Source: Acidobacteriota bacterium (GTDB lineage Bacteria; Acidobacteriota; Terriglobia; Terriglobales; Acidobacteriaceae). Taken from it: DNA of 64,000 nucleotides. Shown one piece after another: positions 8,743-25,225 of the stretch. The DNA lies in contig JAJZBZ010000006.1 in NCBI GenBank assembly GCA_021846275.1, positions 1-64,000 on the forward strand. Direction: 5' to 3'. Position 1 is the first letter of the stretch, and each line of letters begins with the position of its first letter. The notes under the pieces are model-generated. The model had not been told where the DNA came from and made no database searches. It worked only from the letters and a program-made list of their open reading frames with translations. The position numbers were made by a program, and so were the translations under genes.

Positions 8743-11700
8743 GTGGCCGATTCTTTTCGACAACGCGTGCTCCGCGCCGATGGCCGTGCCTTCAACATCG
8801 TCCAGCACCGCGCGCATCTGACCTATTGCTACACCGGCTGTTGCTGTGGCATCACCGAGCGCGGATATGCAGCAGTCCCGGCAGATGTCTATACGGAGGA
8901 GTGGCTCGGGCGCAAAATCCGCAATCATGTTCATCTCACTAAGGGCGGTTGCCTTGGACCCTGCGCGCTCGCTAATGTTGTGAGCCTTGTCTTCGATGGC
9001 AGATCGATCTGGTTCCATTCCGTGAACAGCCCCTGGCAAGTTCGGCAGATATTTGATTACATTGACGCGATGCTGGCTGCGGATCGCTTTCTCCTGCCGC
9101 CAGCCGAACTGAGTGAATTCGTCTTCAACTACTATGACTGGGACGTCCGCAAGCCAGGTGAGATCGTTGCTGCATCCACGCTCGTCAAGACTACTCCAGA
9201 CGCGACCGGCGGCATCATGCTGCTTTCACATGCAGACACCGATCTGCTCACGCTCATCAAGGCTTCGGAGCTACTTCCGACAGAGCTTCGTGTGAGCGCC
9301 TTCTCGCTGAATGCACTGCGCAACGAAGATCAGTTGGACGTGCTGATAAACGGTGAAATGGCTAAGGCTCGGGTGATGATTGTGCGCTGCCATGGGCCTC
9401 TTCGCTGCATTCCAGGCTTCGACCGCCTGCGCGCGGCCTGCATCGAACGCGGACAATCTTTAATTCTCCTTAGCGGTTGCGGAGAGAATAGTCCTGAGTT
9501 CTCCGAGACCATCAATGTGCCTGCCGACGTCATCCAAAGTGCCGACAGTTATCTCGCACTAGGCGGGGTCCATAACTGCGCCGAGTTGTTCCGATTCCTT
9601 TCGGATCGTCTCATGCTGACCGGCTATGGCTACGCGCCACCCACCCCCATGCCGGAGCACGGCATTTATCTGCCGAATTCATCTGAAAACTACCCGGATA
9701 TTGCCACAGTACAGGACTGGGAACGGCAGGCCAATCCTGAGCGTCCCACCGTGGCGGTGCTCTTCTACCGCGCTCATCAAATGAGCGGCAATACGGGTTT
9801 CATTGACACGATTGCCCGAGCACTGGAGGCTAAGGGCGTGAATCCGCTCTGCATCTTTACCTCGAGCCTGAAGGCGAAGCAGGATGGACGTCCAGCAGTA
9901 TTCCAAATGATCGAAGGCCGTGCCAGCGTTCTGATTACGACGCTGTCGTTTGCGCTGGGCGAGGTCAATACGGGATCCGTCACAGAGCCTGGAGAGGCGA
10001 TGCTCTCGTTCGAAAGGCTTGGCATTCCGGTTGTTCAGGCAATTGCGTGTCAGATGCCGCAAGGTGCCTGGGAGGGTTCGCGCCGCGGCCTGAATGCGGT
10101 CGATACCGCAGTCAACGTCGCGATTCCTGAGTTCGATGGACGCATCATTTCCGTGCCTGTATCGTTCAAGGAACGAAGTAAAAATGGTACGGAGAGTTTG
10201 TATGTTGTGAGTGAGGACCGGGCTGCTCGTGTTGCTGGAATTGCGAGCCGTCTTGCCGGACTTCGCAGTAAGGCGAACTCTGACCGTCGCATCGCCTTTG
10301 TGCTGACGAACTCTGCCTCCAAAGCATCCCAGGTTGGAGGAGCGGTTGGCCTCGACACTCCCGCCAGTCTCCTCATGACGTTGCATGCGATGCGGGCACG
10401 TCGCTATGCCATTGCCGAGTTACCGGAGACCGCCGATGAACTGATGCAGGATTTGCTCGGGCGCGGAACTTATGATGGGAATTACCCGCTCGACCCAGCG
10501 CGAGCCATGCGGTTTTCGCGAGCGGCCTATCGGAAAATATATTCGGCCTTCCCTGCCCGTCCGGCGCGTCGGATGCAGGATTTCTGGGGCCAGCCACAGG
10601 ACCGCGGACCCGGCGTAAAGGCTGAAAAAAAAACCGATAAGAAACTTCTTCCGACCATCGCAGGTAAGGTCGTCTCGATTGAAGAAAGCGAGCCTTGGGG
10701 CGACGAGCACGATTATCTGTTTGCCGCCATGGATCTTGGCAATGCAGTGATCGCATTGCAGCCGCCCCGCGGCTACGGCATCGACCCAGACGCTATCTAC
10801 CACACGCCCGACTTGCCACCAACGCACCACTACACAGCCTTCTATCGCTGGCTTGGGACTCCTCAAGCGGAAGGCGGCTGGGGCGCGGATGGGATCGTCC
10901 ACATGGGCAAGCATGGCACGCTCGAATGGCTGCCCGGCAAGGGCGTCGGTCTCTCCGGCGAGTGTTTTCCCGATATTCTGCTTGGCGACATTCCACTTGT
11001 CTACCCGTTCATCATCAACGACCCTGGGGAAGGCAGCCAATCCAAGCGGCGAGCGCACGCTGTGATCGTCGACCACCTGACGCCGCCGATGACATCAGCG
11101 GAGACCTATGGCCCGCTTGCCGAACTGAACCAACTGGTCAACGAGTATTATGCCGTCGAAAAGCTTGACCCTCTGAAGCTACCCTACCTTCAGCAGCAAA
11201 TATGGCAGTTGGTCCAAAGCACCAACCTGAAGGCCGATCTGGATTTGAAGGCGATGATGACGCGCGAGCGCGGCGATCATAGCCACGAGTGGGATGACAC
11301 ACTCACGCCCGAGGGTATTCCGACGCAGCTTGCTTCCATGAACGGCAACGAGGTGGCGCACCTGATCGAAGATCTTGACGGCTATCTCTGCGAGTTAGGC
11401 CTGGCACAGATTCGCGATGGCCTGCACATCGTCGGGCAGATGCCACCGCTGCCAGAGATGCTGCGCTCTCTTACGCGTCTGGTAAACGCCAGTGCCCCGA
11501 GTCTGCAGGCAAGCCTTGCATCGGCATTTGGTTTCGATTTGAAGGAAATGCTGGACAAGCCGGGCGAACGGTTTGAACATTCACTCGAACTGCTGGGCCA
11601 GCCCTGCCATACACGCGCCGATGCACTGGAGATTCTCGACCGCGCTGCGCTCGACCTTTACACAATGCTCGAAACGCTCGGCTTTCAAAGCACCCTGCTC

Positions 11701-13128
11701 GGCGAAGTGCAGCGCGCCGTGCTCGGACTTGAATCGGAAGAGATCACGGCTGCTCTCGCCTTCGCTTGTCATGAACTCGTCCCCAAGCTTGAGCAGTCCG
11801 GCGACGAGATTGACCACCTGCTCGATGCACTTGAAGGCAAATATGTTCCAGCAGGGCCAGCCGGCGCACCAACTCGCGGTATGGCACACATTCTGCCGAG
11901 CGGACGTAACTTCTATGCGGTTGATCCTCGTGCCCTGCCCTCACAGGCGGCATGGCGAGTCGGCCAGCAGCTTGCACGTGAAGCCGTCGCTCGGTTTTAC
12001 AAGGAAGAAGGCAAGTATCCGGAGATGATGGGACTCAGTGTTTGGGGAACCTCGCAAATGCGAACTCACGGCGACGATATCGCTCAGGCGTTGGCGCTAC
12101 TTGGCGTCAAACCCTTGTGGAACGCCCAGTCCCGTCGAATTGAAGGCGTCGAAGTAATTTCTCTGGAGCAACTGGGCCGACCCAGGATAGACGTGACGCT
12201 GCGCATCAGCGGCTTTTTTCGCGATGCATTTCCACACCTGATCGATACATACGACCAAGCCATCTCAATGTTGGTCGAACTGGATGAACCGATCGATCAG
12301 AACTTTCCGCGCAAACACTATCTCGCTGATATTGAGGCAAAAAAGGACTTACCGATGCACGAAGCCGAAGCTCAGGCGCGCTATCGCGTTTTCGGCTCAA
12401 AGCCAGGTTCTTATGGCACCGGTATTCTGCCACTCATCGAGACCGGAAACTGGCAGAAAGAGGATGACTTTGCACGCACGTTCCTCGCTTGGGGAGGCTA
12501 CGCGTACGGCAACGGTGCCGATGGAGTCGACGCACAACTCATCTTCGCCGAGCGGCTCAAATCCATCGAAGTTGCGCTCCACAATCAGGATAACCGCGAG
12601 CACGATATTTTCGATTCAGACGACTACTTCCAGTTTCACGGAGGCATGATCGCCTCCATTCGTGCGCTCACGGGCGCACAGCCGAAAACCTATTTCGGCG
12701 ATACCTCCCGTCCGGAATCCGCGCAGGTTCGGGATCTGCGCGAAGAAGCGCTGCGGGTCTATCGCTCGCGCGTGGTGAACCCAAAGTGGATCGAATCGAT
12801 AAAACGCCACGGCTACAAAGGTGGTTTGGAACTTGCCGCAACGGTTGATTACATCTTCGGTTTCGATGCCACGGCGCAGATCGCTCCGGACTTTATCTAC
12901 GAGGGGCTTGCAGAGCACTATGCGCTAGACCGAAATATGCGTGATTTCCTCGGTGCTTCAAATCCCTGGGCACTGAATGCGATCGCGGAACGATTGCTTG
13001 AAGCGGCAAAACGCGAGCTATGGGAGAACCCCGCGCCGGAGACTCTCAACGCATTGCGAGGCGTTCTGCTTGAAGCAGAGATGTTGCTGGAAGCGCAAGG
13101 CGAGCAGAAGCGGAGGACTGTTTCGTGA
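8743..13128 (+). CDS. cobN: Cobaltochelatase CobN with fused N-terminal [2Fe-2S] ferredoxin-like domain
   Basis: CobN is the large, corrinoid-binding subunit of the ATP-dependent aerobic cobaltochelatase; it inserts cobalt into hydrogenobyrinic acid a,c-diamide. From about residue 165 the 1461-residue chain is a normal CobN/magnesium-chelatase H-type protein (for example GIVHMGKHGTLEWLPGK, GMAHILPSGRNFYAVDP, MMGLSVWGTSQMRTHGDD). The first 110 or so residues are extra and have a thioredoxin-like ferredoxin cysteine pattern: Cys29, Cys33-35, Cys70 and Cys74 in KGGCLGPCALANV. A GTG start at 8743 is preceded by GGGGTG. It is the first gene of the operon and overlaps chlID by four bases. Confidence 0.93.
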   Translation: MADSFRQRVLRADGRAFNIVQHRAHLTYCYTGCCCGITERGYAAVPADVYTEEWLGRKIRNHVHLTKGGCLGPCALANVVSLVFDGRSIWFHSVNSPWQVRQIFDYIDAMLAADRFLLPPAELSEFVFNYYDWDVRKPGEIVAASTLVKTTPDATGGIMLLSHADTDLLTLIKASELLPTELRVSAFSLNALRNEDQLDVLINGEMAKARVMIVRCHGPLRCIPGFDRLRAACIERGQSLILLSGCGENSPEFSETINVPADVIQSADSYLALGGVHNCAELFRFLSDRLMLTGYGYAPPTPMPEHGIYLPNSSENYPDIATVQDWERQANPERPTVAVLFYRAHQMSGNTGFIDTIARALEAKGVNPLCIFTSSLKAKQDGRPAVFQMIEGRASVLITTLSFALGEVNTGSVTEPGEAMLSFERLGIPVVQAIACQMPQGAWEGSRRGLNAVDTAVNVAIPEFDGRIISVPVSFKERSKNGTESLYVVSEDRAARVAGIASRLAGLRSKANSDRRIAFVLTNSASKASQVGGAVGLDTPASLLMTLHAMRARRYAIAELPETADELMQDLLGRGTYDGNYPLDPARAMRFSRAAYRKIYSAFPARPARRMQDFWGQPQDRGPGVKAEKKTDKKLLPTIAGKVVSIEESEPWGDEHDYLFAAMDLGNAVIALQPPRGYGIDPDAIYHTPDLPPTHHYTAFYRWLGTPQAEGGWGADGIVHMGKHGTLEWLPGKGVGLSGECFPDILLGDIPLVYPFIINDPGEGSQSKRRAHAVIVDHLTPPMTSAETYGPLAELNQLVNEYYAVEKLDPLKLPYLQQQIWQLVQSTNLKADLDLKAMMTRERGDHSHEWDDTLTPEGIPTQLASMNGNEVAHLIEDLDGYLCELGLAQIRDGLHIVGQMPPLPEMLRSLTRLVNASAPSLQASLASAFGFDLKEMLDKPGERFEHSLELLGQPCHTRADALEILDRAALDLYTMLETLGFQSTLLGEVQRAVLGLESEEITAALAFACHELVPKLEQSGDEIDHLLDALEGKYVPAGPAGAPTRGMAHILPSGRNFYAVDPRALPSQAAWRVGQQLAREAVARFYKEEGKYPEMMGLSVWGTSQMRTHGDDIAQALALLGVKPLWNAQSRRIEGVEVISLEQLGRPRIDVTLRISGFFRDAFPHLIDTYDQAISMLVELDEPIDQNFPRKHYLADIEAKKDLPMHEAEAQARYRVFGSKPGSYGTGILPLIETGNWQKEDDFARTFLAWGGYAYGNGADGVDAQLIFAERLKSIEVALHNQDNREHDIFDSDDYFQFHGGMIASIRALTGAQPKTYFGDTSRPESAQVRDLREEALRVYRSRVVNPKWIESIKRHGYKGGLELAATVDYIFGFDATAQIAPDFIYEGLAEHYALDRNMRDFLGASNPWALNAIAERLLEAAKRELWENPAPETLNALRGVLLEAEMLLEAQGEQKRRTVS

Positions 13129-14864
13129 GACCGGGCGCTTATCCCTTCTCCGCAATCGTTGGCCAGAGCGAGATGAAGCTCGCGCTGCTACTGGCTGCTG
13201 TCGATTGGCGACTTGGAGTTTTGCTGCGCGGTGACAAAGGATCGGGGAAGACAACCGCCGCGCGCGGTCTGGCTACGCTATTGCCGGCACCCGCACGTTT
13301 CATCAATCTGCCGCTCGGTGCCACGGAAGACCGTCTGCTTGGGGGGCTTCATCTGCAGCGCACACTGAAGGGCGATCCTGTCCTCAAGCCGGGATTGCTT
13401 GCCGAGGCACATGGCGGCGTGCTTTACGTGGATGAGGTAAATCTTCTCGCTGCGCACTTGGGTGACGCCTTGTTGGACGCTGCTGCAAGCGGGGTTCATC
13501 TGGTGGAGCGTGAAGGCTTAAGCTCAACTCATCCAGCCGAGTTTATCCTCCTGGGCAGCATGAACCCGGAGGAAGGTTCACTGCGCCCGCAGTTGCTGGA
13601 CCGTTTTGCATTATCAGTGACGGTTTCTGCTCCACTCGACCCAGCCGAACGCCAACTCGTGATGGCGCGAAGAATTGCATACGAACGTGACTCAGTTCGA
13701 TTTGCCAGTGAGTGGTCACAAGCCCAACAGGTTTTGCAATCGCAGATCGCCTCCGCCAGAGCGTCTCTCGGCAGCATCCCGTGTTCCGACGACATGATGG
13801 GACACATCAGCTCCACTATCTGCGCAAATGGGGTTCGATCCTTGCGAGCCGATCTGGCTGTTGTGCGGGCTGCAATCGCATATGCAGCTTTCACGGGCGA
13901 TGCATGTGTTGGAGGACACCATGTTGACGCTGTCTTGCCCCTTGTCCTTTCCCACCGGACGCAGGAGGGCAGACGTTCCTCACTCGCTCCGCCGCCGCCA
14001 CCACCTCCGCCGCAACCAGACAGGCCTGAATCACAATCCGAGGCCGCCGGACAACAAGCCCGGGAACTCATACACGAACGCATATTCACTTCTTCGGACA
14101 CCACAACTCCCGCCCTTGACCTCCGGTTCAGCACAGCAGCGACACGAGGGGCAGGCGTACCTGCGGATAACTGTGGTTGCGGTCCAGCCATAGGCAATCG
14201 TCAGACAAATTTCCCTGTCGAGCTTGATTTGCGCGCCACGCTCAGCCAAACACTGCGTGAAACCGGCGGTTTGCAACCGCGTGTCGAGGATTTACACGAA
14301 CGGGTGCGCAAGCCGAGGACCGGAACTCGTTATCTCTTCGTCGTCGACTCCAGCGGCTCGCACGCCGCACAGCAGCGAATGCGAATCGTCAAAGGCGCTA
14401 TTGCAAGCATGCTGACCCGCTCTTTCAAACGGGAGGATGAAGTGGCCATGATTGTCTTCCGCGGAACTACCGCGCAGGTCGTTCTGGAGCCAACTCAGGT
14501 GCTTCCCGACGCTCTTGCTGCGCTCGAATATCTTCCCACCGGTGGTCGAACGCCGCTGGCTGCTGCGCTCGATCAGGCACGCCGTTACCTGACGCCCACG
14601 ACGCTTCTCATCCTGGTCACCGACGGCAGGGCTAATTTCCCGCTGCATGGAGGAGACCCCTGGCAAGAGTCTCTTGATGCAGCGCAGTCAATGAACTGCA
14701 ACGCAATCCTCATCTATACAGATCCTGCCACACAGCGACCAGGTCGATGCGAGGAACTGGCGAATATCCTAGGCGCGCGCTACCTCTCGCTGGAGGAGCT
14801 TGTGCAGAATGAGAATTTTTCGATTTTGGTCGAACCGGTCGAGCCACAGAGGCAGGGGGTTTAA
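13125..14864 (+). CDS. ChlI/ChlD-type cobaltochelatase ATPase subunit (AAA+ plus vWA)
   Basis: This is the ATPase partner of CobN, of the magnesium-chelatase I/D fusion kind rather than the CobS plus CobT kind. Residues 1-280 are an AAA+ module with Walker A GDKGSGKTTAARG and Walker B GGVLYVDEVNLL. A proline-rich linker (eight or so prolines near 287-294) follows. From about 395 comes a von Willebrand A domain with the MIDAS DSSGS and LVTDGRANFP. The GTG start overlaps the cobN stop (GTGA) after a GGAGG. A single 579-residue chain would provide both motor and regulatory parts. Confidence 0.9.
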   Translation: MRPGAYPFSAIVGQSEMKLALLLAAVDWRLGVLLRGDKGSGKTTAARGLATLLPAPARFINLPLGATEDRLLGGLHLQRTLKGDPVLKPGLLAEAHGGVLYVDEVNLLAAHLGDALLDAAASGVHLVEREGLSSTHPAEFILLGSMNPEEGSLRPQLLDRFALSVTVSAPLDPAERQLVMARRIAYERDSVRFASEWSQAQQVLQSQIASARASLGSIPCSDDMMGHISSTICANGVRSLRADLAVVRAAIAYAAFTGDACVGGHHVDAVLPLVLSHRTQEGRRSSLAPPPPPPPPQPDRPESQSEAAGQQARELIHERIFTSSDTTTPALDLRFSTAATRGAGVPADNCGCGPAIGNRQTNFPVELDLRATLSQTLRETGGLQPRVEDLHERVRKPRTGTRYLFVVDSSGSHAAQQRMRIVKGAIASMLTRSFKREDEVAMIVFRGTTAQVVLEPTQVLPDALAALEYLPTGGRTPLAAALDQARRYLTPTTLLILVTDGRANFPLHGGDPWQESLDAAQSMNCNAILIYTDPATQRPGRCEELANILGARYLSLEELVQNENFSILVEPVEPQRQGV

Positions 14865-14865
14865 C

Positions 14866-15426
14866 GTGCAGAAGAACCAGGGTCATTCCGTAATCCTCGT
14901 CCTGGGGGGCGTCCGAAGCGGGAAGAGTCGCTACGCGCAGCAGTTAGCCGAGCACTCCACCCGGGTTACGTTTCTTGCCACAGCCGAGCATCGCGATGAT
15001 GAGGAGATGCACCGGAAGATCGAACGCCACCGCGCAGACCGGCCCGCACACTGGACTACCGTGGAAGAACGGATCGCTTTAGGCCGTGTCGTTGAGGCCA
15101 GTGAAGATAGCTGCGATGCCATTCTTATCGACTGCCTCACGCTCTTCGGTGCCAATCTTATGGAAGTATACGGGAGCAATGAAGCGGGCCTCAATGCATG
15201 CATCGAAGACCTCTGCGCCGCTTTGAAGGCGACTTCCCGTAAGGTCATCCTGGTTTCAAACGAAGTTGGCAGCGGCGTCGTCCCCGCCTATGCGCTCGGT
15301 CGCCGCTTCCGTGACGTTGTGGGAGACATCAACCAGCGCGTTGCGGCTTTGGCCGATACTGTACTCCTGATGGTCGCCGGACTTCCGCTTGTACTCAAAG
15401 GTTCGCTCGAAGGAGGCTATCGGTGA
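14866..15426 (+). CDS. cobU: Adenosylcobinamide kinase / guanylyltransferase CobU (CobP)
   Basis: This bifunctional enzyme phosphorylates adenosylcobinamide and transfers GMP to it, activating the corrinoid for nucleotide-loop assembly. The GTG at 14866 follows the chlID stop by one base and is preceded by AGGCAGGGGG; it gives 186 residues. The P-loop GGVRSGKSRYAQQLAE lies near residue 15. The catalytic segment ATAEHRDDEEMHRKIERHRADRP follows (shown in part), with ILIDCLTLFGANL and VSNEVGSGVVP later. Its stop overlaps the cobB start (GTGA). Confidence 0.95.
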   Translation: MQKNQGHSVILVLGGVRSGKSRYAQQLAEHSTRVTFLATAEHRDDEEMHRKIERHRADRPAHWTTVEERIALGRVVEASEDSCDAILIDCLTLFGANLMEVYGSNEAGLNACIEDLCAALKATSRKVILVSNEVGSGVVPAYALGRRFRDVVGDINQRVAALADTVLLMVAGLPLVLKGSLEGGYR

Positions 15427-16814
15427 AAGGCTTCCTTGTTGCCGGCACGGCCAGCGGAGTCGGGAAGACCACTGCCACTCTCGCAATCATCGCGTCATTT
15501 CGTCGTCGAGGGCTTGCAGTTCAGCCCTTCAAGTCCGGTCCGGATTTTCTTGATGCTGGCCACCATACCCGCATCGCAGGCCGCACAGCACGCAACCTCG
15601 ATACATGGATGCTCTCTGCACAGGCAAACCGCGACGTGATTCGTCACGCGTCGCACGGTGCCGATGTCCTGGTGGCAGAGGGCATGATGGGGCTGTTCGA
15701 CGGCAAGGATGGATCTTCCGAGACGGGTAGCAGCGCCGAGATTGCAAAGCTTCTAAAGCTACCAGTGGTGCTTGTGCTGGACGCAGGGAAGATCGCTCGG
15801 AGCATCGCTGCCGTGGTGCTTGGATTTGAACTCTTTGATGCTGAACTCCCCTTGGCGGGAGTCATCCTGAATCGTGTCGCAAATCACCGCCATTTTTGCA
15901 TGTTAAAAGCTGCGATCGAATCTGCTTGCAAGACGCCGGTTCTGGGTTGGCTGCCGCGGGAGCCTGCAGTCGCCATCCCAGAGCGACACCTTGGGCTTCA
16001 AACAGTGGAAGAAGGCGTGACAGGCGGGGCTCTTGAAAACCTGATCGATACTCTTGCAGACCTTGCAAATAAACACCTGGACATAAACAATTTAATGAAT
16101 TTGGAATGTGGACTGAACTTAAAGCCTGAAGTTCTTCCAGTGCTTCGCAAAGCGCGAGATCAGATTCGCGTGGGAATAGCTCGTGATCGGGCTTTTTCCT
16201 TTTACTACGAAGACAACCTGGACCTGCTCCAGCAGCATGGAGCCACCCTCGTGCCGTTCAGCCCGATGCATGACCGCTGCCTGCCGCCGGACCTCGATGC
16301 TCTCTATCTCGCTGGAGGTTACCCGGAGCTTTATGCGGCTCAAATTAGTGAAAATGCTGCAATGCTCTCGGCTATTCGCGAATTTGTCGCCTCCGACCGT
16401 CCCGTGTATGCCGAATGTGGAGGCATGATCTTCCTGTCGCAGCAACTCATTTCGCGCGACGGAACCACATATCCCATGGTCGGTGTACTGCCTTTCGAAA
16501 TCGAGATGACCGGAAGACTCGTCGATTTCGGATACGTCACGGTGGAATTAACCGATGACTGCCTGCTCGGCAGGGTAGGCACTGTGCTCCGAGGGCACAG
16601 CTTCCATTACTCCCGCATCTCGAATGAATTTCAAGCCGCCACGAATTACCAGGTCCAATACTCCCTCTCCGGCCGCACGAAGAGTGAAGGCTATCGGCTG
16701 GGCAATATGCTCGCGAGTTACATGCACCTGCACTTTCGTACAGAGCAGAACATAGCTCGCAATTTCATTGAGACGGCCATCACCAATCGAACCGCGAAGG
16801 TGGTGCCCCAATGA
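15423..16814 (+). CDS. cobB: Hydrogenobyrinic / cobyrinic acid a,c-diamide synthase CobB
   Basis: This glutamine-dependent amidase converts the a and c carboxylates of the ring to amides, using ATP. The 463-residue protein begins with a P-loop NTPase domain (VAGTASGVGKTTATLA; AEGMMGLFDG). From about residue 240 it has a class I glutamine amidotransferase domain with the nucleophile Cys in YAECGGMIFLS. In the aerobic pathway its substrate is metal-free hydrogenobyrinic acid, which fits the CobN cobaltochelatase encoded upstream. The GTG start is preceded by GGAGG and overlaps cobU. The stop overlaps the ATG of cobT (ATGA). Confidence 0.94.
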   Translation: MKGFLVAGTASGVGKTTATLAIIASFRRRGLAVQPFKSGPDFLDAGHHTRIAGRTARNLDTWMLSAQANRDVIRHASHGADVLVAEGMMGLFDGKDGSSETGSSAEIAKLLKLPVVLVLDAGKIARSIAAVVLGFELFDAELPLAGVILNRVANHRHFCMLKAAIESACKTPVLGWLPREPAVAIPERHLGLQTVEEGVTGGALENLIDTLADLANKHLDINNLMNLECGLNLKPEVLPVLRKARDQIRVGIARDRAFSFYYEDNLDLLQQHGATLVPFSPMHDRCLPPDLDALYLAGGYPELYAAQISENAAMLSAIREFVASDRPVYAECGGMIFLSQQLISRDGTTYPMVGVLPFEIEMTGRLVDFGYVTVELTDDCLLGRVGTVLRGHSFHYSRISNEFQAATNYQVQYSLSGRTKSEGYRLGNMLASYMHLHFRTEQNIARNFIETAITNRTAKVVPQ

Positions 16815-18004
16815 CACCACTGGAGCAGAATCTCAGCTACTGTTCCGAGCGGAGACCATCCGGATGCTGCCGTTCCTCGAAGAACGGCAGCCCAGGCGAT
16901 TGTGAGTCCGGGTACATCGACTGTGATTCTGCCTTAAGCGCAGCCGCCGTGACAGAATTGATCTGCGGAATTGAGCCTCCGGACGAGATATGGAGAACTC
17001 GCTCGCGCGCGCGTCTGGACGCGCTTACCAAACCTCTGGGCAGCCTTGGCAGACTCGAAGACCTTGCCGCTCAGTTAGTGGCGATCCGACGCGAACACCT
17101 GGTGTTGCCCCTCGACGCGGCTGTCTATGTCTTCGCCGCGGATCATGGCATTGCCGCCGAAGGCGTGAGCGCATATCCACAAGCGGTCACACACCAGATG
17201 GTGCTCAACTTTCTCGCCGGAGGAGCCGCTGTCAATGTCCTTGCTCGTTTGCATGACGTGACACTGCATGTGGTCGATGTGGGAGTCAACGCAGACTTCA
17301 ACAATATCGAGGGCCTGCTTCACTACAAAGTCTCAAATGGCACAAAAAATATGCTCCGCGATGCAGCCATGACCGACGATGAACTCTCGCGAGCCTTGCT
17401 TGTCGGCGCACAGCTCGCGAATGAAGCAGCGGATGCCGGGCGTACCTTGTTGGCCGTGGGGGAAATGGGCATCGGCAATACTACCTCAGCCAGTGCAATT
17501 ACCTGCGCCATCACAGGTGCCGCTGAGTCACTCGCAACCGGGCGCGGGACTGGCCTGGACGACGCGGCTCATACGCGCAAGATTGCAATTGTCGAAGCGA
17601 TTGTGAAAAAGCACTTCGCAAACTGTAGGTCACCCCATCCACTCGAGATAATGCGCTGTGTTGGTGGCCTGGAAATCGCTGCCATGGCCGGCATGATCCT
17701 CGCAGCAGCTCGCAACCGTATCGCCATCGTTGCCGACGGCTTTATCTCCACTGCGGCAGCGGCCCTTGCCGTAAGCCTCGAACCGAAGGTAGGCGGCTAT
17801 CTGATCGTTGGCCACCGCTCGGAGGAGCCAGGGCACAGATTACTGCTCGACTACCTCAAACTAACTCCCCTTCTGAACTTGGATATGCGCCTGGGCGAAG
17901 GCAGCGGAGCCGTTCTCGCCATGTCTGTCATTCAGTCGGCCATCGGACTCTACTCACAGATGGCCACCTTCACCTCCGCCGGCATCAGTGAGGCTTCTCT
18001 ATGA
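16811..18004 (+). CDS. cobT: Nicotinate-nucleotide:DMB phosphoribosyltransferase CobT with repeat-encoded N-terminal tail
   Basis: CobT makes alpha-ribazole phosphate from dimethylbenzimidazole and nicotinate mononucleotide. The enzyme body starts near residue 50 (LTKPLGSLGRLEDLAAQL; FAADHGIAAEGVSAYP; GEMGIGNTTSASA; MRLGEGSGAVLA at the end) and is complete. Residues 4-42 are not part of the family. They are encoded by a 117-bp palindromic repeat also found in cobC (SGCCRSSKNGSPGD in both). The ATG at 16811 overlaps the cobB stop like its neighbours. A GTG at 16949 (residue 47) is the alternative start that would leave the repeat untranslated. Confidence 0.93.
   Translation: MTPLEQNLSYCSERRPSGCCRSSKNGSPGDCESGYIDCDSALSAAAVTELICGIEPPDEIWRTRSRARLDALTKPLGSLGRLEDLAAQLVAIRREHLVLPLDAAVYVFAADHGIAAEGVSAYPQAVTHQMVLNFLAGGAAVNVLARLHDVTLHVVDVGVNADFNNIEGLLHYKVSNGTKNMLRDAAMTDDELSRALLVGAQLANEAADAGRTLLAVGEMGIGNTTSASAITCAITGAAESLATGRGTGLDDAAHTRKIAIVEAIVKKHFANCRSPHPLEIMRCVGGLEIAAMAGMILAAARNRIAIVADGFISTAAAALAVSLEPKVGGYLIVGHRSEEPGHRLLLDYLKLTPLLNLDMRLGEGSGAVLAMSVIQSAIGLYSQMATFTSAGISEASL
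16820..16936 (+). repeat. 117-bp palindromic repeat, copy A, in frame within cobT
   Basis: This copy matches 23999-24115 at 105 of 117 positions by my hand alignment. It is built as nested palindromes. Outer arms AGCAGAATCTCAG (16824-16836) and CTGTGATTCTGC (16921-16932) differ from perfect pairing at one base. The inner hairpin GCTGCCGTTC / GAACGGCAGC (16866-16875 and 16882-16891) has a six-base loop. It begins nine bases after the cobT ATG, is a multiple of three long and contains no stop in the gene's frame. Confidence 0.88.
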
Positions 18005-18780
18005 ACGGCTGGAAATTCGTGAAAGAAACTGGCTCAGACGCACTGGCTGCAGTGCAGTTTCTCACCCGAATCCCCATGCCTTATCTGCCTTATGACCCGG
18101 CCTCGCTTTCGCGCGCGGTCAAGTTCTTTCCAATCGTGGGTCTTGTTATTGGGAGCGCTGCTGCTCTGCTTCATCAGCTTCTCACGCCACACCTTCCCAG
18201 GATGGTCACGGCTCTCCTCGTCATTGCCTTTTTGGTTGCGATCACAGGATGTTTGCATGAAGATGGTCTGGCAGACACCGCTGACGCCTTCGGAGGCGGT
18301 TCGAGCCGCGAACAGATTCTCGTCATCCTTAAAGATAGCCGCATCGGTAGCTATGGCGGCACAGCCTTGACGCTCAGTTTGGTTGCCCGCGTCCTGTTGC
18401 TTGCATCACTGCCTTTAGCCCAGGTTCCGAAATACCTCATCGCCGCTCACGTTCTTTGCCGCTGGACCACTCTGCCGTTGAGTTACTACCTCACCTCGGC
18501 CCGCAATCAGCAGGATCAGGATGGAGCCGGTCAGGGAGCGCGAATTGCCAAGCTTACCACGCGTGGAACACTCATTGCTGGCTCTATCTTCAGCCTCGCA
18601 ATCTGTTCGTTTGCGTTGCGAATTCACATGGCCGCCGCAGTCACCGCAACCATTCTGGTTACGTTATTGAGCGGCCTCTACTACCAACGGAAAATCGGTG
18701 GTGTAACCGGAGATTGTTTTGGAGCCACCAATCAAATCGCAGAGATAGCCGTTTACCTCACCGGAGTGTGGCTCGCATGA
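18001..18780 (+). CDS. cobS: Adenosylcobinamide-GDP ribazoletransferase CobS
   Basis: CobS is the membrane enzyme that joins adenosylcobinamide-GDP to alpha-ribazole (phosphate), the last assembly step of the cobalamin nucleotide loop. The 259-residue protein has FLTRIPMP near residue 22, and the signature DGLADTADAFGGGSSREQ with DSRIGSYGG near residue 90. It has about six hydrophobic stretches, in line with the polytopic family. GDCFGATNQIAEI near the end is also conserved. ATGA overlaps tie it to cobT upstream and to the phosphatase downstream. Confidence 0.95.
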   Translation: MNGWKFVKETGSDALAAVQFLTRIPMPYLPYDPASLSRAVKFFPIVGLVIGSAAALLHQLLTPHLPRMVTALLVIAFLVAITGCLHEDGLADTADAFGGGSSREQILVILKDSRIGSYGGTALTLSLVARVLLLASLPLAQVPKYLIAAHVLCRWTTLPLSYYLTSARNQQDQDGAGQGARIAKLTTRGTLIAGSIFSLAICSFALRIHMAAAVTATILVTLLSGLYYQRKIGGVTGDCFGATNQIAEIAVYLTGVWLA

Positions 18781-19364
18781 ACGATCTGCTTTTCATTCGC
18801 CACGCCGAGACCCATATGCACGGCACATTCTGCGGTCAATCTGACCCGCCCGTGAACGCCGCAGGCCGCCGACAAATCCAGAAACTCACAGAACGCCTGC
18901 GCACCGAATCAATTGTTACGGTCTTCACGAGCGATCTGCAACGCTCAGTGACTACCGCACGCGCACTCGCTCAGGCCTTCGCAATTCCATGCATCACTCG
19001 CTCAGCCTTGCGCGAGATCAATTTCGGACAGTGGGAGGGACTGACATGGAAAGAAATCGAGAAGCTTGACACGTCCATGGCTCAGCAGTGGCTCGAAACC
19101 TTTCCCCGCATGACGCCGCCAAATGGAGAATCCTTTGAGACATTTGAGGCAAGAGTAATGGCCGAGGTAAGCTATCTCCTCAGTCAGTCTCCCGGCGGCT
19201 TGATCGCCGTCGTCACACACGCCGGAGTTATGCGTGCGGTCCTGCGTACTCTCTGCGGTCTCGACGATAAGACAGCATGGGATATGACAAAACCCTACTG
19301 CTGTACCTTTCGATATGCGCATCATTCCAATTTCGACAGGCGATTACAGGAGGTTTTCGTATGA
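18777..19364 (+). CDS. Alpha-ribazole phosphatase-like histidine phosphatase
   Basis: This 195-residue protein of the histidine phosphatase (phosphoglycerate mutase) superfamily has the phosphohistidine motif LLFIRHAETHMHG at its start. It also has INFGQWEGLTWKEIE near residue 80 and the second catalytic His in VTHAGVMRAVL. Placed directly after cobS, it most likely removes the 5' phosphate of alpha-ribazole phosphate or adenosylcobalamin phosphate (the CobC phosphatase role in enterics). That substrate is inferred from position. The ATG overlaps the cobS stop. Here the name cobC is kept for the aminotransferase-like gene at 23990. Confidence 0.88.
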   Translation: MNDLLFIRHAETHMHGTFCGQSDPPVNAAGRRQIQKLTERLRTESIVTVFTSDLQRSVTTARALAQAFAIPCITRSALREINFGQWEGLTWKEIEKLDTSMAQQWLETFPRMTPPNGESFETFEARVMAEVSYLLSQSPGGLIAVVTHAGVMRAVLRTLCGLDDKTAWDMTKPYCCTFRYAHHSNFDRRLQEVFV

Positions 19365-20194
19365 TGCCTCATATCCTCAATCCGATTCGTACCATAGAGC
19401 TTGTTGCATGGGACTTGGACGAATACATATCCCGTCCAGAGACGATTGAGCGCGAAAGACAAATCAAAGCGCGGGAGCTTGTCGCTCTGAGGCAATTGGA
19501 TCATTCTTCCACCGCGTTGTGCGAAGAGCAGACGCGACAGCTTCGCGGTATTTTAGATCGACAGCAATCCCGCCTCGACCTCCACGAGGAGATGATGGGC
19601 CTCGATTGGTTTCTTGGTGTCGTCGACTTGCGGCGGCTGCTCGCCTTTCAGCGCAGGCTGTCTTTCAATGCAACGCTACCCGTCCTCACCGTTCCTCCGC
19701 AGTGCGACTGGGATCGTCTCATCGAGATCGCTTTCGCTTCTCCAAATCCAGTTAACTGCGATGTGGTCCACGATGCAGATAAAAAAATGGTCATTCTGCA
19801 ATCCAGCAACCCCAACATGCAGCTCCGAGTGAGGCAGGATCCCGCAGCGCCCATCGCCGTGCATACAGGCAGTCCCTTCTTTGAGGTAGCTCAATACGCA
19901 GGGCGCTGGTTCCTGCGGGATGGCTATCACCGCGCCTACAAACTGCTTCGAGCGGGAATTTATCAAATTCCCGCCGTAGTTGTTCGCGCCATGACTCTTG
20001 AGGATCTCGGTGCCATCCAACCGCAGTTTTTCTCCGAGGCAGTCCTTCTTTCGGAACATCCCCCGCTGGTCAGCGACTTCCTCAATGAGGCGCTGATCAT
20101 CGAATACGAATGCTATCCCATCGTCAAGACGTTGCGTATCACACTGGAAGAGAGCATCGCATTTCCACTTCCGGTAGAAATGTCAGGAGAGTAA
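19361..20194 (+). CDS. Uncharacterised protein coupled inside the cobalamin operon
   Basis: I do not recognise this 277-residue protein. It begins at ATGATG overlapping the phosphatase stop and ends two bases before pduO, so it is clearly part of the operon. The first third is rich in charged residues and probably helical. From about residue 180 a segment WFLRDGYHRAYKLLRAGI, followed by IPAVVV, resembles the DGxHR loop of ParB/sulfiredoxin-like domains, which bind nucleotides. No signal peptide or membrane segment is visible. It may act on a nucleotide or corrinoid intermediate, but this is a guess from context. Confidence 0.75.
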   Translation: MMPHILNPIRTIELVAWDLDEYISRPETIERERQIKARELVALRQLDHSSTALCEEQTRQLRGILDRQQSRLDLHEEMMGLDWFLGVVDLRRLLAFQRRLSFNATLPVLTVPPQCDWDRLIEIAFASPNPVNCDVVHDADKKMVILQSSNPNMQLRVRQDPAAPIAVHTGSPFFEVAQYAGRWFLRDGYHRAYKLLRAGIYQIPAVVVRAMTLEDLGAIQPQFFSEAVLLSEHPPLVSDFLNEALIIEYECYPIVKTLRITLEESIAFPLPVEMSGE

Positions 20195-20196
20195 CT

Positions 20197-20772
20197 ATGA
20201 GCATCTCAACCACACGCGGTGACAGCGGACAGACTGGTCTCGCGGGCGGGATCCGCGTCTCCAAGGCGGATCTACGAGTTGAATCCTATGGCACCGTCGA
20301 CGAACTCAACACTGTCCTCGGCTTCGCCCGCAGCATCTGTCAAAACCCCGAGATTAAGGCATGGACTGAAACCATCCAGCGCACACTTTTCCGGTTAGGC
20401 TCCGCTCTGGCCACACCTCCTGAGAGCAAGAAGCAACCGCCCGTCATCTCTTCCGAAGACGTTGCCATGCTCACCGAACTCGTCCACAAGATTGAGGCGA
20501 TTGAAGGCATCTTGTCGGACTGGTCGCTGCCCGGCGCACACACTGAGTCCGCAGCCTACGAGGTGGCGCGCACCGTCTGCCGGCGCGCAGAACGAAATGT
20601 GATTCGATTTATCGAAAGCGGCGGAGTGGTCAAGCCCGAAATCATCGCCTACCTCAACCGGCTCTCCGACACGATCTGGCTCTTTGGCCGGCTCATCGAA
20701 TTCAATGCGGGCGTCGACGCGCGCCTCCGCGATGAGACCAAGACTGGTCCCAAGTGGTCGAGGGCATGGTAA
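20197..20772 (+). CDS. pduO: PduO-type ATP:cob(I)alamin adenosyltransferase
   Basis: This enzyme attaches the 5'-deoxyadenosyl group from ATP to cob(I)alamin or cobinamide, forming the active coenzyme. The 191-residue protein has the PduO-type N-terminus (TRGDSGQTGLAGGIRVSK, then VESYGTVDELNTVLGFAR) that binds ATP. NRLSDTIWLFGRLIEF lies near the C-terminus. The ATG at 20197 has AGGAGA seven bases upstream. It is the adenosylation step for the pathway; no cobO-type enzyme is present. Its stop shares a base with the bluB ATG (TAATG). Confidence 0.94.
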   Translation: MSISTTRGDSGQTGLAGGIRVSKADLRVESYGTVDELNTVLGFARSICQNPEIKAWTETIQRTLFRLGSALATPPESKKQPPVISSEDVAMLTELVHKIEAIEGILSDWSLPGAHTESAAYEVARTVCRRAERNVIRFIESGGVVKPEIIAYLNRLSDTIWLFGRLIEFNAGVDARLRDETKTGPKWSRAW

Positions 20773-21449
20773 TGAACGACCGCGCAGAATTTGAGTTGCA
20801 AGAACGCGATGCTATCTATCGAGCCATCGCCACCCGGCGCGATGTACGCAGAGGCTTTCTTGATAAGCCACTGCCTGACGAGTTGATTCAACGCTTGCTA
20901 TCCGCAGCGCATTGCGCTCCTTCCGTCGGTCTTATGCAGCCCTCGCGGTTCGTTTTGGTCCGCGACTACAACGTCCGCCAAGCCATCCATGAAGCATTTC
21001 TCTTGGCAAACGAACAGGCCCTGGCAACCTACACCGGCGCGCGACGCGAGCAGTACGCAAGGCTGAAGCTCGAAGGCATCCTGGAAGCTCCACAAAACCT
21101 GTGTGTTCTCAGTGATCCCCAAAGTGAGCGCGGCCATCGACTTGGCCGCCATACGATGCCTGAGACTGCGATCTATTCAACAGTCTGTGCGATACAGAAT
21201 CTTTGGCTCGCAGCCAGGTCCGAAGGAGTAGGCGTAGGATGGGTCAGCATCCTCGATGCGGATCGTCTTCGCGAGATTCTGCATATTCCGGCGAATATTG
21301 TGCCAGTCGCCTATCTTTGTCTTGGCTACGTCGACCGATTCGCCACGGAGCCTGACCTTGAGCGTTTAGGGTGGGAGAGCCGGATACCACTCGAAGGGGT
21401 TGTATCTTATGACAGATATTACCCCACCACCGAGGTCAAAAAAACATGA
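20772..21449 (+). CDS. bluB: 5,6-dimethylbenzimidazole synthase BluB
   Basis: BluB is an oxygen-dependent flavin-destroying enzyme of the nitroreductase fold that cleaves FMNH2 to make 5,6-dimethylbenzimidazole, the lower ligand. The 225-residue protein has AIATRRDVRRGF near residue 15, AAHCAPSVGLMQPSRFVLV near 40, and VGVGWVSILDADRL with PVAYLCLGYVDRF in the second half, all typical. The ATG at 20772 overlaps the pduO stop. Its presence means the host can make true cobalamin aerobically without imported base, and CobT is encoded in the same operon to use it. Confidence 0.95.
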   Translation: MNDRAEFELQERDAIYRAIATRRDVRRGFLDKPLPDELIQRLLSAAHCAPSVGLMQPSRFVLVRDYNVRQAIHEAFLLANEQALATYTGARREQYARLKLEGILEAPQNLCVLSDPQSERGHRLGRHTMPETAIYSTVCAIQNLWLAARSEGVGVGWVSILDADRLREILHIPANIVPVAYLCLGYVDRFATEPDLERLGWESRIPLEGVVSYDRYYPTTEVKKT

Positions 21450-23014
21450 CGGCGCGCGCGATCATGGTGCTCGGCACGAGTTCTCATGTAGGAAAATCAC
21501 TTATCACGGCTGCGCTCTGTCGAATCTTTGCGGATCAGGGAGTGAGTGCCGCACCCTTTAAGGCGCAGAATATGTCGCTCAATTCCTCTGCGACCATAGA
21601 AGGTTTGGAAATCGGCCGTGCGCAGGCTCTGCAGGCGGAAGCAGCCCGCATCCCAGCCTCGGTCCACATGAATCCCATCCTTCTGAAACCTGCTGGAAGT
21701 ATGACATCGCAGGTGGTTGTTCGGGGCAAGATATGGGGTAGACTCTCTGCTGCGAATTATCAACAACGCCGTGTCGAAGAACTACTACCCATAGTTCGCG
21801 AGAGCTACGAGATTCTTGCTGCGAAACATGACGTTATCATCCTCGAAGGCGCTGGCTCGCCTGCGGAGATTAATCTGAAACAGCACGACATCGTCAACAT
21901 GAGAATGGCCGAGATCGCCGATGCGGTCTGCCTGCTGGTGGGCGACATCGACCGCGGAGGTGTCTTTGCCTCGCTCCTCGGCACTGTTCAGTTGCTCGAC
22001 GCAACAGAACAATCCCGCATCCGCGGATTCCTCATCAACAAATTTCGTGGGGATATCGCGCTTCTCGAACCCGGTGTCCGCATGATGGAAGATCTTCTCC
22101 TGAAGCCATGCCTTGGCATCGTCCCATACATGCATCATCTTGCGCTCGAAGAGGAAGACAGTCTCGGTCTCGCCGATATAACTGGCGAGGCAGAGCCATG
22201 GTTACCGCAGGATGTGCCTGATAGAAAACTCCGTATCGCTGTCGTTGCCCTGCCATCCTTTTCAAACTTCACCGACTTCGATGCACTACGCCACGAGCCA
22301 TCTGTCTCCTTGCATTTCTGCCGGGAATCATCGCAGCTTGCGCTTGCCGACTTAGTAATTTTGCCTGGCAGCAAACAGACGGTCGAAGACCTTCTCTGGA
22401 TGCGCCGGAAGAATCTGGATTCCGGAGTTGTTGGGCATGCCTCTCACAGCCTTGTCGTTGGCATTTGCGGAGGGATGCAGATGCTGGGCACTGCGATTGT
22501 CGATCCGCTCGCGATGGAATATAGCGGTGCAATCAACGCACTTGGGCTGTTGCCGTTTTCCACTCGTATGAAATCGGACAAAGTGACACGCCCGATAACG
22601 GGTCGACTGTCTCGATCCATCCTGTTTGGTCAGCCTGTGCCCGCAATGGACATCGACGGTTATGAAATCCATATTGGCGAAACAGTGTATGCGTACGGCG
22701 CTCAGGCATTTTCTATCCTGAACGGGCACGAGCTTGACGGATGTATCTCCGCGGACACTCGAGTCTTCGGAACGTATCTGCATGGCATCTTCGATGACGA
22801 CAGATTCCGTCACGTCTTCCTGGCTGCGGCTCGGAGTTTCCATCAACTTGATCCTGTGACTCATTTCGAGAACTGGAGGCAAAAACGCGAAGACTCATTG
22901 AACCGATTAGCAGATACCGTTCGTGAATCGTTGGACCTGCCCCTCATCTTCGATTGGGTTGGCCTTCGTTGCAAAGCTCAAGGCCGGATTGAGACCTTGG
23001 AGAAAATCCGTTGA
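21446..23014 (+). CDS. cobQ: Cobyric acid synthase CobQ
   Basis: CobQ amidates the b, d, e and g side chains of adenosylcobyrinic acid a,c-diamide, using glutamine and ATP, to give adenosylcobyric acid. The 522-residue protein begins MVLGTSSHVGKSLITAALCR, a P-loop NTPase domain, and has VGDIDRGGVFASLLG near residue 165. The glutamine amidotransferase domain starts near 260, with nucleophile Cys in VGICGGMQMLG and the conserved GTYLHGIFD near the end. ATGA overlap with bluB and TTGA overlap with cbiB link it to both neighbours. Confidence 0.96.
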   Translation: MTARAIMVLGTSSHVGKSLITAALCRIFADQGVSAAPFKAQNMSLNSSATIEGLEIGRAQALQAEAARIPASVHMNPILLKPAGSMTSQVVVRGKIWGRLSAANYQQRRVEELLPIVRESYEILAAKHDVIILEGAGSPAEINLKQHDIVNMRMAEIADAVCLLVGDIDRGGVFASLLGTVQLLDATEQSRIRGFLINKFRGDIALLEPGVRMMEDLLLKPCLGIVPYMHHLALEEEDSLGLADITGEAEPWLPQDVPDRKLRIAVVALPSFSNFTDFDALRHEPSVSLHFCRESSQLALADLVILPGSKQTVEDLLWMRRKNLDSGVVGHASHSLVVGICGGMQMLGTAIVDPLAMEYSGAINALGLLPFSTRMKSDKVTRPITGRLSRSILFGQPVPAMDIDGYEIHIGETVYAYGAQAFSILNGHELDGCISADTRVFGTYLHGIFDDDRFRHVFLAAARSFHQLDPVTHFENWRQKREDSLNRLADTVRESLDLPLIFDWVGLRCKAQGRIETLEKIR

Positions 23015-23997
23015 ATCGCTGCTTCCTTATTCCTGCGGCGTGGCTCCTCGACCAACTTGTCGGCGACCCTGAGATGTTCCCGCACCCGGTGCGCCTGATC
23101 GGTTTTGCCGCGGCGCGTGGTGAGGCTGCCCTTCGCAGGCCAAGCCAGAGCGAGCTTTCGGAACTTATCTCAGGCGGAACCTTGTGCGTCGCTGTCGTCG
23201 CTGCCAGTTACTATGCAACGCGCCGGTTGATCCGCGCAGCAAACCGCCTTTCGCCCACAGTGGGCAATACAGTGGAAGTACTGCTCGCATGGACTTGCCT
23301 GGCGGCTCGCAATCTTGAACAGGAGGCAACCTCAGTCGTGGAAGCGCTGGATTCCGGAGAGCTGCCGCTGGCTCGTCTCCGCCTGGCACGCATCGTCGGG
23401 CGCGACACCACACATCTGGACACGCACGAAATCTGCCGTGCCTTGATTGAGACGCTGGCTGAAAGCGCATCCGATGGCATTCTTGCGCCGCTCTTTTACA
23501 TGGCCCTGGGTGGCGTGCCTCTGGCTATGGCCTATAAGGCCGTGAATACGCTCGACTCGATGATTGGACACGCTGACCACCGTTATTTCTACTTCGGCAA
23601 AGCTGCCGCACGGCTGGACGACGCAGCCAACTACCTGCCTGCGCGCCTCACTGCGGCTGCCTTCGTCGCGGCCTCGGTCGTCCACAAAGATTCCGATCCG
23701 CTGACCGCGTGGCAGACCTGGCGTCGCGACGGTGACAAGCACAAGAGCCCCAACGCTGGCCACCCCGAAAGTGCTATGGCGGGAGCACTGCGCGTTCGAC
23801 TTGGAGGCGACAACACTTACGCTGGCGAGTTGATTCCTGCTGCACATATCGGTCCCGAGTTTCCACGGCCATCGCTGCCAAAGGCGAAAAGAGCCATCCG
23901 TCTGGTCTCGACCGTTACTTTGATGGGTATAGCCGGTGCCGTTCTTCTCTCAGCCTGCGCTCAGTTACGTAAAGCCCAGGGGCGTCGAAATGACTGA
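23011..23997 (+). CDS. cbiB: Adenosylcobinamide-phosphate synthase CbiB (CobD)
   Basis: This membrane protein joins (R)-1-amino-2-propanol phosphate, or the free amino alcohol, to adenosylcobyric acid. The 328-residue chain has LLDQLVGDPEMFPHPVRLIG near the start and ESASDGILAPLFYMALGG then AYKAVNTLDSMIGH near residue 155-195. SPNAGHPESAMAGALRVRLGG near 248 is also family-typical. Start is a TTG overlapping the cobQ stop. The last 17 or so residues form a hydrophobic segment. Its stop lies eight bases into the following gene's start region. Confidence 0.95.
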   Translation: MNRCFLIPAAWLLDQLVGDPEMFPHPVRLIGFAAARGEAALRRPSQSELSELISGGTLCVAVVAASYYATRRLIRAANRLSPTVGNTVEVLLAWTCLAARNLEQEATSVVEALDSGELPLARLRLARIVGRDTTHLDTHEICRALIETLAESASDGILAPLFYMALGGVPLAMAYKAVNTLDSMIGHADHRYFYFGKAAARLDDAANYLPARLTAAAFVAASVVHKDSDPLTAWQTWRRDGDKHKSPNAGHPESAMAGALRVRLGGDNTYAGELIPAAHIGPEFPRPSLPKAKRAIRLVSTVTLMGIAGAVLLSACAQLRKAQGRRND

Positions 23998-25225
23998 ACT
24001 GGAGCAGAATCACAGCTACGATGCCCAGCGGAGTCGATCCGGATGTTGCCGTTCCTCGAAGAACGGCAGCCCTGGCGATTGTGAGTCCGAGTACACCGAC
24101 TGTGATTCTGCTTTAATCCCCCTGCACGGCGGCCAACTGCGGCATATCTCCGAGCGCTTCAAAATTCCTTCATCGCAACTGATCGACTTCAGCGCCAACA
24201 TCAATCCTGACGGACCGCCGATCGCAGTCCTGTCCACCCTGCGAACGAGCCTGGAAGACATCTCGATTCTGACCGCATATCCGGATATTGAACAGGCCGA
24301 ACTCAAGAAAGCGATCGCTGACTATGCTGGAGTTCACCAAAAACAACTCGTAGTCGCCAACGGCTTCATTCCACTGCTGGAGTCTGCGCTTCACGCGCTC
24401 AGGCTCAAGCGCTGCCTTCTCCCAGTACCCGCTTTTGTTGAGTATCGCCGCAGCCTCGCGCGCGTTGGCGTAGAGGTCGAACCGCATATCCTCAGTGCAA
24501 ATTCCAATTTCCGTTATGACATCCGTGTCATGGTACATGGTGGTCATGACACTGTTTTGCTCGCCAATCCTCAGAATCCATCTGGTGTCCTTACAACTAG
24601 GGATACTCTGCTCCAGTTTGTCTCTGAGTGTGCGGAGCGAAACATCACCGTACTGCTCGATGAAGCATTCATAGACTACGCGCCTTTGCATTCACTGACT
24701 GCGGATGTCGAACAATTTGCAAACCTGATCGTCTTTCGCTCCGTGACCAAATTTCTCGGCATTCCGGGACTCAGAGCAGCCTATGCAGTCGCCAACGAGG
24801 CTATCTCACAAGCCCTGAATGAAACATTACCGCCTTGGCCAATCACAACCCTGGCTTCATGCGCCGTCGCTTCCGCGTTAGCTGACCACTCCTTCGCTAA
24901 GCGCACCAGGCTGCAAAATGATCGACGAAGATCGAATCTGAGAGATGAACTGGATACCCTTGGCATCCGCACCTATCTTTCGGCAGCAAACTTTCTGCTT
25001 CTTCAGCTTCCCGAATTTATCTCCGCAGGCCGCTTTTGGGGACATATGCTCGTTGAGCATCATATGGTTTTAAGAGACTGCTCAAACTATGAAGCTCTGC
25101 CATCCGGGCACTTACGGATCGCAGTTCGTACGACAGAGGAGAACGATAAGTTCATCAGAGCAGTCGCTCAATCATTACAATTTTTCCAGCACGGCCAGTG
25201 TGCATTGACGAAGGGGATGAAGTAG
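23990..25225 (+). CDS. cobC: Threonine-phosphate decarboxylase-like CobC with repeat-encoded N-terminal tail
   Basis: This PLP-dependent class I/II aminotransferase-fold enzyme is expected to make aminopropanol phosphate from threonine phosphate for CbiB, its upstream neighbour. The family body starts near residue 46 (HGGQLRHISERF; IDFSANINPDGPP; LLANPQNPSG; LLDEAFIDY; PLP Lys in SVTKFLGIPGLRAAY). Residues 4-42 come from the 117-bp palindromic repeat shared with cobT and are not part of the family. The ATG at 23990 overlaps the cbiB stop. No ATG or GTG occurs between the repeat and the enzyme body, so the tail is probably translated. Confidence 0.92.
   Translation: MTELEQNHSYDAQRSRSGCCRSSKNGSPGDCESEYTDCDSALIPLHGGQLRHISERFKIPSSQLIDFSANINPDGPPIAVLSTLRTSLEDISILTAYPDIEQAELKKAIADYAGVHQKQLVVANGFIPLLESALHALRLKRCLLPVPAFVEYRRSLARVGVEVEPHILSANSNFRYDIRVMVHGGHDTVLLANPQNPSGVLTTRDTLLQFVSECAERNITVLLDEAFIDYAPLHSLTADVEQFANLIVFRSVTKFLGIPGLRAAYAVANEAISQALNETLPPWPITTLASCAVASALADHSFAKRTRLQNDRRRSNLRDELDTLGIRTYLSAANFLLLQLPEFISAGRFWGHMLVEHHMVLRDCSNYEALPSGHLRIAVRTTEENDKFIRAVAQSLQFFQHGQCALTKGMK
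23999..24115 (+). repeat. 117-bp palindromic repeat, copy B, in frame within cobC
   Basis: This copy aligns with 16820-16936 without gaps. Its outer arms AGCAGAATCACAG and CTGTGATTCTGCT are perfectly complementary over 13 bases. The inner hairpin has one G-T pair in place of G-C, which keeps the stem in RNA. Like copy A it starts nine bases after an ATG that overlaps the previous stop, and it runs in frame without a stop into the host gene. Confidence 0.88.

Follow-up and report, generated by a model that had tools for sequence, protein, structure and literature searches.

What is the palindrome that stands, in near-identical copies, directly behind the start codons of two unrelated enzyme genes, and how did it come to be there? 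The window, which is the whole 64,000-nucleotide stretch of acidobacterial DNA analysed here, carries a cobalamin gene cluster at 8743-25225, in which the CobN, CbiA, CobT, CobD/CbiB, and CobC families were matched. Two of these genes, cobT and cobC, contain the repeat. In the following, G000 is the host genome, other G numbers are other genomes, and L numbers are fetched loci.

Results

Two copies of a nested palindrome in cobT and cobC

The features of the two copies and their host genes are as follows.

16811-18004, plus strand: cobT, 397 aa; the insert follows Met-Thr-Pro (domain matches and insert-free orthologues)
16820-16937, plus strand: element copy A, 118 bp; cobT codons 4-42 plus one base (BLAST and covariance-model matches)
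16824-16836, plus strand: left outer arm of copy A, 13 nt (pattern match and pairing)
16921-16933, minus strand: right outer arm of copy A (pattern match and pairing)
16866-16891, no strand assigned: inner hairpin of copy A, 10-bp stem and 6-nt loop
23990-25225, plus strand: cobC, threonine-phosphate decarboxylase type, 411 aa; the insert follows Met-Thr-Glu
23999-24116, plus strand: element copy B, 118 bp; cobC codons 4-42 plus one base (BLAST and covariance-model matches)
24003-24015, plus strand: left outer arm of copy B (pattern match and pairing)
24100-24112, minus strand: right outer arm of copy B (pattern match and pairing)
24045-24070, no strand assigned: inner hairpin of copy B, 9/10 pairs

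The two copies are 90% identical over 117 bp by BLAST, and 88% identical over 128 nt including flanks. With the cobT copy as query, the cobC copy is found at E 1e-39, which rules out a chance repeat as their origin. The outer arms pair at 11/13 positions in the cobT copy and at all 13 in the cobC copy, and the inner stems at 10/10 and 9/10 positions, respectively. RNA folding of the cobT copy gave z values of -3.0 and -4.4, one per strand. Each copy starts 9 bases past an ATG (16811 in cobT, 23990 in cobC) with which the upstream gene's end overlaps; in both genes, the host frame runs through the element without a stop. The initial annotation had described near-identical nested palindromes at these places, 9 bases after such an ATG and without a stop in the host frame, and all of this is borne out for both genes. 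It had also given them 117 bp and 39 residues. The location stands and the size is refined: the full unit is 118 bp, and the insert between the terminal dinucleotides (TG on the left, TA on the right) is 114 bp, or 38 codons.

Orthologues lack the insert

CobT is present in 28/297 genomes of the phylum sample, the host included. Among the 27 others, 26 align only from query residue 42, the last one of the element, or beyond. The exception, G124, aligns back to residue 13 via an in-frame stop, and its upstream translation has no visible likeness to the tail. Two cobT genes within the family open with MTPP... and MTPD..., comparable to the MTP on the left of the element. As for CobC, the seven in-family orthologues fetched from cobalamin loci are all without the insert. 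In each of them the conserved HGGQL lies 4-11 residues past the nearest in-frame ATG, and in the host CobC minus the insert it would fall after 7 residues. The repeat-free orthologues that had been proposed for comparison thus exist for both enzymes, and the cobT and cobC repeats, as judged from these alignments, are insertions. CobT had no match in the other 14 genomes of the genus, several of which are 84-88% complete; the cobalamin cluster was therefore gained in the host or lost elsewhere.

The conserved domains of both enzymes start behind the insert. In CobT, Pfam DBI_PRT begins at residue 54 and NCBIfam NF000996 at residue 48. In CobC, position 1 of TIGR01140 falls at residue 46, with a score of 272 bits that is below the curated cut-off of 290.55. 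With respect to solved relatives, CobT residue 50 aligns to chain residue 7 of 1d0s (CobT type), and CobC residue 45 aligns to chain residue 7 of 1lc5 (threonine-phosphate decarboxylase). Domain matches and orthologues together confirm that the insert is N-terminal to the conserved domains of two unrelated enzymes. We also inspected start codons past the repeat, at which both proteins had been suggested to begin if the tail were not translated. Between the ATG at -9 and +531, cobC has zero in-frame ATG, GTG, or TTG; hence, a functional CobC can only be made by reading through the element. The suggestion survives for CobT, as a start at GTG 16949, downstream of the element, is possible.

The element is dispersed in the host genome and across the taxonomic family

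G000 carries at least 20 copies of the element, dispersed over contigs. A first BLAST search of this genome found 16 distinct places, of which 14 are full or nearly full and two are partial. To these, covariance models brought at least five older copies of full length, as well as some that are shortened. By BLAST, the cobT/cobC sequence type occurs in G013 alone among the other 14 genus genomes, and in none of 46 further relatives. A first covariance model, built from 14 G000 and two G013 copies and used at E <= 0.001, detected relatives of the element in 8/15 genus genomes; 35 copies were collected from G012. A second model, built from 24 copies of nine species, detected the element in 32/120 family genomes and 21/79 genera, host included, with G006 and G011 being further positive members of the genus. 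The second scan scored the best 30 candidates per genome and its matches fall on both strands of one place, so copy numbers from it are neither full nor strand-free. The repeat is more widespread than the initial annotation had reported.

The common plan extends beyond the genus. In forty loci from eight genomes outside it, an outer stem of 13 bp encloses an inner hairpin, and the whole unit spans 116-120 bp. Twenty-two of these loci have precisely TAGAGC as their left end, and others have near variants; CTTTTC or CTTTTT occurs together with GAAAAG in 23, and a TTTT/AAAA tip in 34. Overall, 103/108 collected copies are 117-120 bp long. The family thereby shares features of a miniature inverted-repeat transposable element (MITE): it is short, multicopy, and without a transposase gene, and it has terminal inverted repeats (the 13-bp outer arms). 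A 29-bp mini-palindrome of the outer arms alone lies at G000:C8:368096-368124 (L073:1597-1625), beside the stop codon that ends a TolC-like gene, and has the appearance of an element that lost its interior by deletion.

A known RNA family was considered as the identity of the element and dropped, as six loci gave no curated Rfam match; their only two matches are far below the gathering scores (E 0.19 and 0.54). Carriage by plasmids or viruses is likewise unsupported: plasmids searched with two queries, and viral contigs searched with the core pattern of one subtype, gave no match. In the open-access literature, as distinct from subscription papers, we found no description of this acidobacterial family. 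The string 'acidobacter' has zero occurrences in a 2024 MITE review, PMC8841776 holds one mention only, within its reference list, and PMC12306157 lists predicted short REPs for Granulicella aggregans.

The arms change between species and stay paired

The arm letters differ from species to species, yet both nested stems are still complementary. In 24 aligned copies, 90 cells changed on both sides compared with 34.9 in shuffles, and none of 500 shuffles was as high. The covariation score was 0.448 against 0.186 for shuffled alignments, again reached by 0/500, and sliding the partner cut it to 0.09-0.23. Two of five covariation measures, which count pairs or types, were not above the shuffles (104 and 192 of 500). 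Helix 2 is undercounted because rows with 6-nt loops have their inner stem out of register in the alignment.

Pairing counts are in line with the species-specific arms. With one copy per species, the outer arms pair at 11.3/13 positions, compared with a mean of 7.7 and a maximum of 9.4 when arms are swapped between species. In a position-fixed count of 100/108 copies from 17 species, the other eight being omitted for register or trimming, 11.8/13 positions pair within copies and 7.9 between species. The inner stem pairs at 9.5/10 positions within 68 copies and at 5.5 between species, the within-copy figure being favoured because the hairpin was picked for best pairing in each copy.

Ends, target sites, and gene context

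Gene context was tabulated for 97 copies. These are top-scoring matches and no random sample, 35 of them coming from G012; partial copies L018, L020, and L026 were left out, and 11 further copies, including L230, are in the arm count and absent from the context tables. As the gene calls come from a simple codon score for which the window was the training set, and the copies are non-random, the context percentages are indicative only. With a few bases' slack allowed, the stop codon of a flanking gene lies within an element end in 43/97 copies (at both ends in five). Another 51 copies are intergenic or other, and three are within called genes, which is a low count, the gene caller having placed the cobT copy under 'other'. 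Among the 81 copies with both flanks called, 36 have convergent and five have divergent flanks. In an exact count, the terminal TA is part of a gene's stop codon in 39/97 copies (39/94 outside genes), whereas 31/174 non-genic YTAR sites in the same loci are at stop codons (Fisher p 4e-5), and so are 84/1052 non-genic TA sites.

A terminal TA is found at the left end of 61/97 copies and at the right end of 66/97, with 39 copies having it at both ends. The left TA is preceded by Y in 53 of 61 cases and the right TA is followed by R in 55 of 66, giving a YTAR context. The cobT and cobC copies carry TG rather than TA at the left end. At L346 (G382), a full copy adjoins what is left of a second one, a truncated right end, and the two have a single TA in common; another full copy is located ~1.2 kb away. 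No empty site with a single TA opposite a full duplication was seen in the orthologous comparisons.

Compared by eye with seven relatives, G012 has an element end at the place of a stop codon, which is TAA or TAG in six of them and TGA in G000. A similar comparison of G014 with G008 places an element end at a stop codon, with TAA versus TGA. Some of the end stop codons may have arisen when an element inserted into the final codons of a gene, rather than having been there before; it is on this point that the two comparisons bear. At one convergent stop-codon site, G000 (G000:C3:237875-237992) and G007 (L230) hold different element subtypes, while G003, G008, G012, G013, and G014 have no element there; vertical inheritance with concerted change could account for the shared site. 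A second repeat family, at L163:767-922, is roughly 140-160 bp long with ends like GTGTTAACAGGCCCTA and has multiple copies in several members of the genus. Directly at the TA end of this second family, G012 carries a 118-bp element.

The encoded peptide

We compared 16 copies with their consensus by codon position and counted 74, 68, and 86 differences at positions 1, 2, and 3, respectively. The substitutions are even over codon positions, so the peptide is without visible selection, and coding selection was set aside as an explanation. The frame is open in 14/16 copies of G000 and G013, 7/35 copies of G012, and 13/40 copies from eight other genomes. Since it is closed in 28/35 and 27/40 of the latter two sets, the family as a whole does not conserve the peptide. 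A wider read-through scan returned 18/97 copies, few of them convincing and some probably shadow frames. Its in-frame copies include L330 (G367), at the Met-Met-Pro of a TonB-like gene, and L170 (G012), within a 622-codon open frame that has no Pfam match.

Structure models of the two enzymes are confident for most of the folds and have very low confidence in CobT residues 1-40 and CobC residues 1-48. The low tail pLDDT arises in part because no homologue covers the tail. Given tails modelled in this way and a peptide without coding selection, the tails of CobT and CobC would most likely be neutral or mildly costly.

Search for a mobilising enzyme

Pfam Y1_Tnp (PF01797) has no match in carriers G000, G013, and G005. 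It is present in 10/15 genus genomes, other element carriers among them. At 30 of the 34 Y1 matches of the genus, which are those whose loci were inspected, there are only scattered single element-end matches (2-3 mismatches) and no flanking pair. Mobilisation by a RAYT was therefore rejected for G000 and G013 specifically, since other carriers do have Y1 genes. End patterns were inspected as well. At 16 loci with single end matches (<=1 mismatch) in G000 and G013, there is no facing second end (<=3 mismatches); many further 2-mismatch end matches of these two genomes lie outside this set. The 45 end matches of G196 (<=2 mismatches) are paired at element spacing only, and none at transposon distance. 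The RAYT-like or other transposase sharing the ends, which the initial annotation had proposed to look for, was thus not found by the Y1_Tnp profile or by end-pattern searches. With the autonomous partner unseen in G196, at the 16 single-end loci, and at the 30 Y1 loci, the element is called MITE-like only.

The window also contains a DDE insertion sequence at 31343-32683, with imperfect 33-nt terminal inverted repeats and a transposase in two overlapping reading frames. It was discarded as a partner, its ends being different by eye. A partial inverted second copy of it (94% over 163 nt) is at 1-262. At 27599-28009 and 28108-28470, a fragment of the DNA polymerase III alpha finger domain stands beside a homeodomain-like HTH fragment; these two are apparently debris adjoining the cobalamin cluster.

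Discussion

A probable MITE-like element, occasionally trapped in frame

The element is probably a non-autonomous palindromic MITE-like unit of ERIC type that inserts at YTAR/TA, is tolerated at gene ends, and is occasionally trapped in frame. It is ~118 bp long and has TAGAGC...GCTYTA-type ends; its outer stem measures 13 bp and its inner hairpin 10 bp. A trans-acting enzyme would move it into YTAR sites, leaving TA at both ends by duplication. Beside the terminal TA, G/A predominates at the left end and T/C at the right, so that an insertion into TAA or TAG would leave a stop codon. With the stop codon preserved, copies would be tolerated and therefore survive often at gene ends, chiefly between convergent genes; the gene-end positions are observed, and the selection behind them we infer. 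In cobT and cobC, each of which begins before the preceding gene has ended, a copy would have inserted at codon 4. The 38 stop-free codons added would give CobC, and probably CobT, a disordered N-terminal tail of no evident function.

Among known systems, ERIC, IRU, and RU-1 (127 bp) resemble the element in size class, imperfect palindrome, and TA ends, the likeness being one of anatomy. ERIC reportedly prefers stop codons (attributed to De Gregorio 2005), and TA ends and stop-codon overlap are both present in the acidobacterial family. The differences are the phylum, and stems that change letters between species yet stay paired. PMC2229807 and PMC2759123 describe ERIC as intergenic, with intragenic in-frame fusions. 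RUP, Correia/NEMIS, and other TA-flanked bacterial MITEs are also small with TA ends and terminal inverted repeats (PMC2229807), but no partner insertion sequence was found for the acidobacterial element in the loci searched. In-frame MITE insertions are reported for another bacterium in PMC5896051. GTAG REPs, moved by RAYTs, have palindrome ends able to supply TAG stops, according to PMC3733652, but they are 20-40 bp rather than about 118 bp long and come with a resident Y1 transposase, which the profile does not detect in G000 and G013. The same paper describes acidobacterial Y1 transposases with terminal repeats (TIRYT/TIRtrons), and as described there, these TIR-associated enzymes differ from the present family.

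Alternative explanations

The initial annotation saw in the cobT and cobC copies the logic of Rickettsia palindromic elements (RPEs), palindromic units, roughly 105-150 bp long, that interrupt unrelated genes without breaking their reading frame (PMC2229807 and PMC10969869). The acidobacterial family shares this description. A family specialised for in-frame protein insertion, with the peptide as a selected product, could explain why cobT, cobC, and probably an EAL-HDOD gene of G000 carry a copy in frame at the N-terminus, and likewise the copies in the TonB-like gene of G367 and the 622-codon frame of G012. We consider it very improbable, as most of the 97 copies are at stop codons or intergenic/other, the codon positions are evenly substituted, and the frame is closed in most copies of G012 and the eight other genomes. 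RPEs are described as unusually often intragenic (PMC10969869), whereas the 97 copies are mostly outside genes, and frequent insertion into open frames with one conserved frame is not what the family displays. RPE logic therefore applies to a minority of copies, including those in cobT and cobC, and not to the element's general nature; its closest behaviour is ERIC-like rather than RPE-like. It also appears quite unlikely that, instead of two separate insertions, a local duplication or a gene conversion produced one of the cobT and cobC copies from the other. The two are mutual best or tied best matches (89.8%) and have a CTGG left end in common, but L004, on another contig, matches copy B just as well (89.8%), CTGG ends are also found at L013 and L025, and the flanks differ beyond the starting ATGAC.

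The stop-codon preference and the excess of convergent over divergent flanks are also what one would expect of a structured RNA or DNA element kept for its action at gene 3' ends, such as a bidirectional terminator, an RNA-stability element, or a transcription-collision barrier, that is incidentally mobile and is misplaced in cobT and cobC. The strong covariation fits this reading, and an effect of ERIC RNA on upstream transcripts has been reported (PMC2229807). It is nevertheless unlikely: no T-run terminator was found in the single stretch scanned, around the cobT copy, the six loci have no Rfam match, and the species-specific amplified subfamilies resemble bursts of a mobile element. The manner of movement invites a more speculative proposal, to which we give a small chance of being right, namely that an undescribed enzyme may mobilise the element in single-stranded, folded form, as DNA or RNA, and may read the nested two-hairpin shape and not a fixed sequence. 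If true, this would explain why each species has its own arms while the stems, the 118-nt length, and the TAGAGC-type ends are kept, and why no matching insertion sequence is seen.

Covariation of paired arms on such a scale makes it a testable question whether the fold or the sequence is under selection. The tails of CobC and probably CobT provide an example of enzyme tails derived from a small palindrome in a phylum other than those of Rickettsia and the enterobacteria, with tail-free orthologues at hand. The family from which they stem is a widespread one in a major group of soil bacteria.
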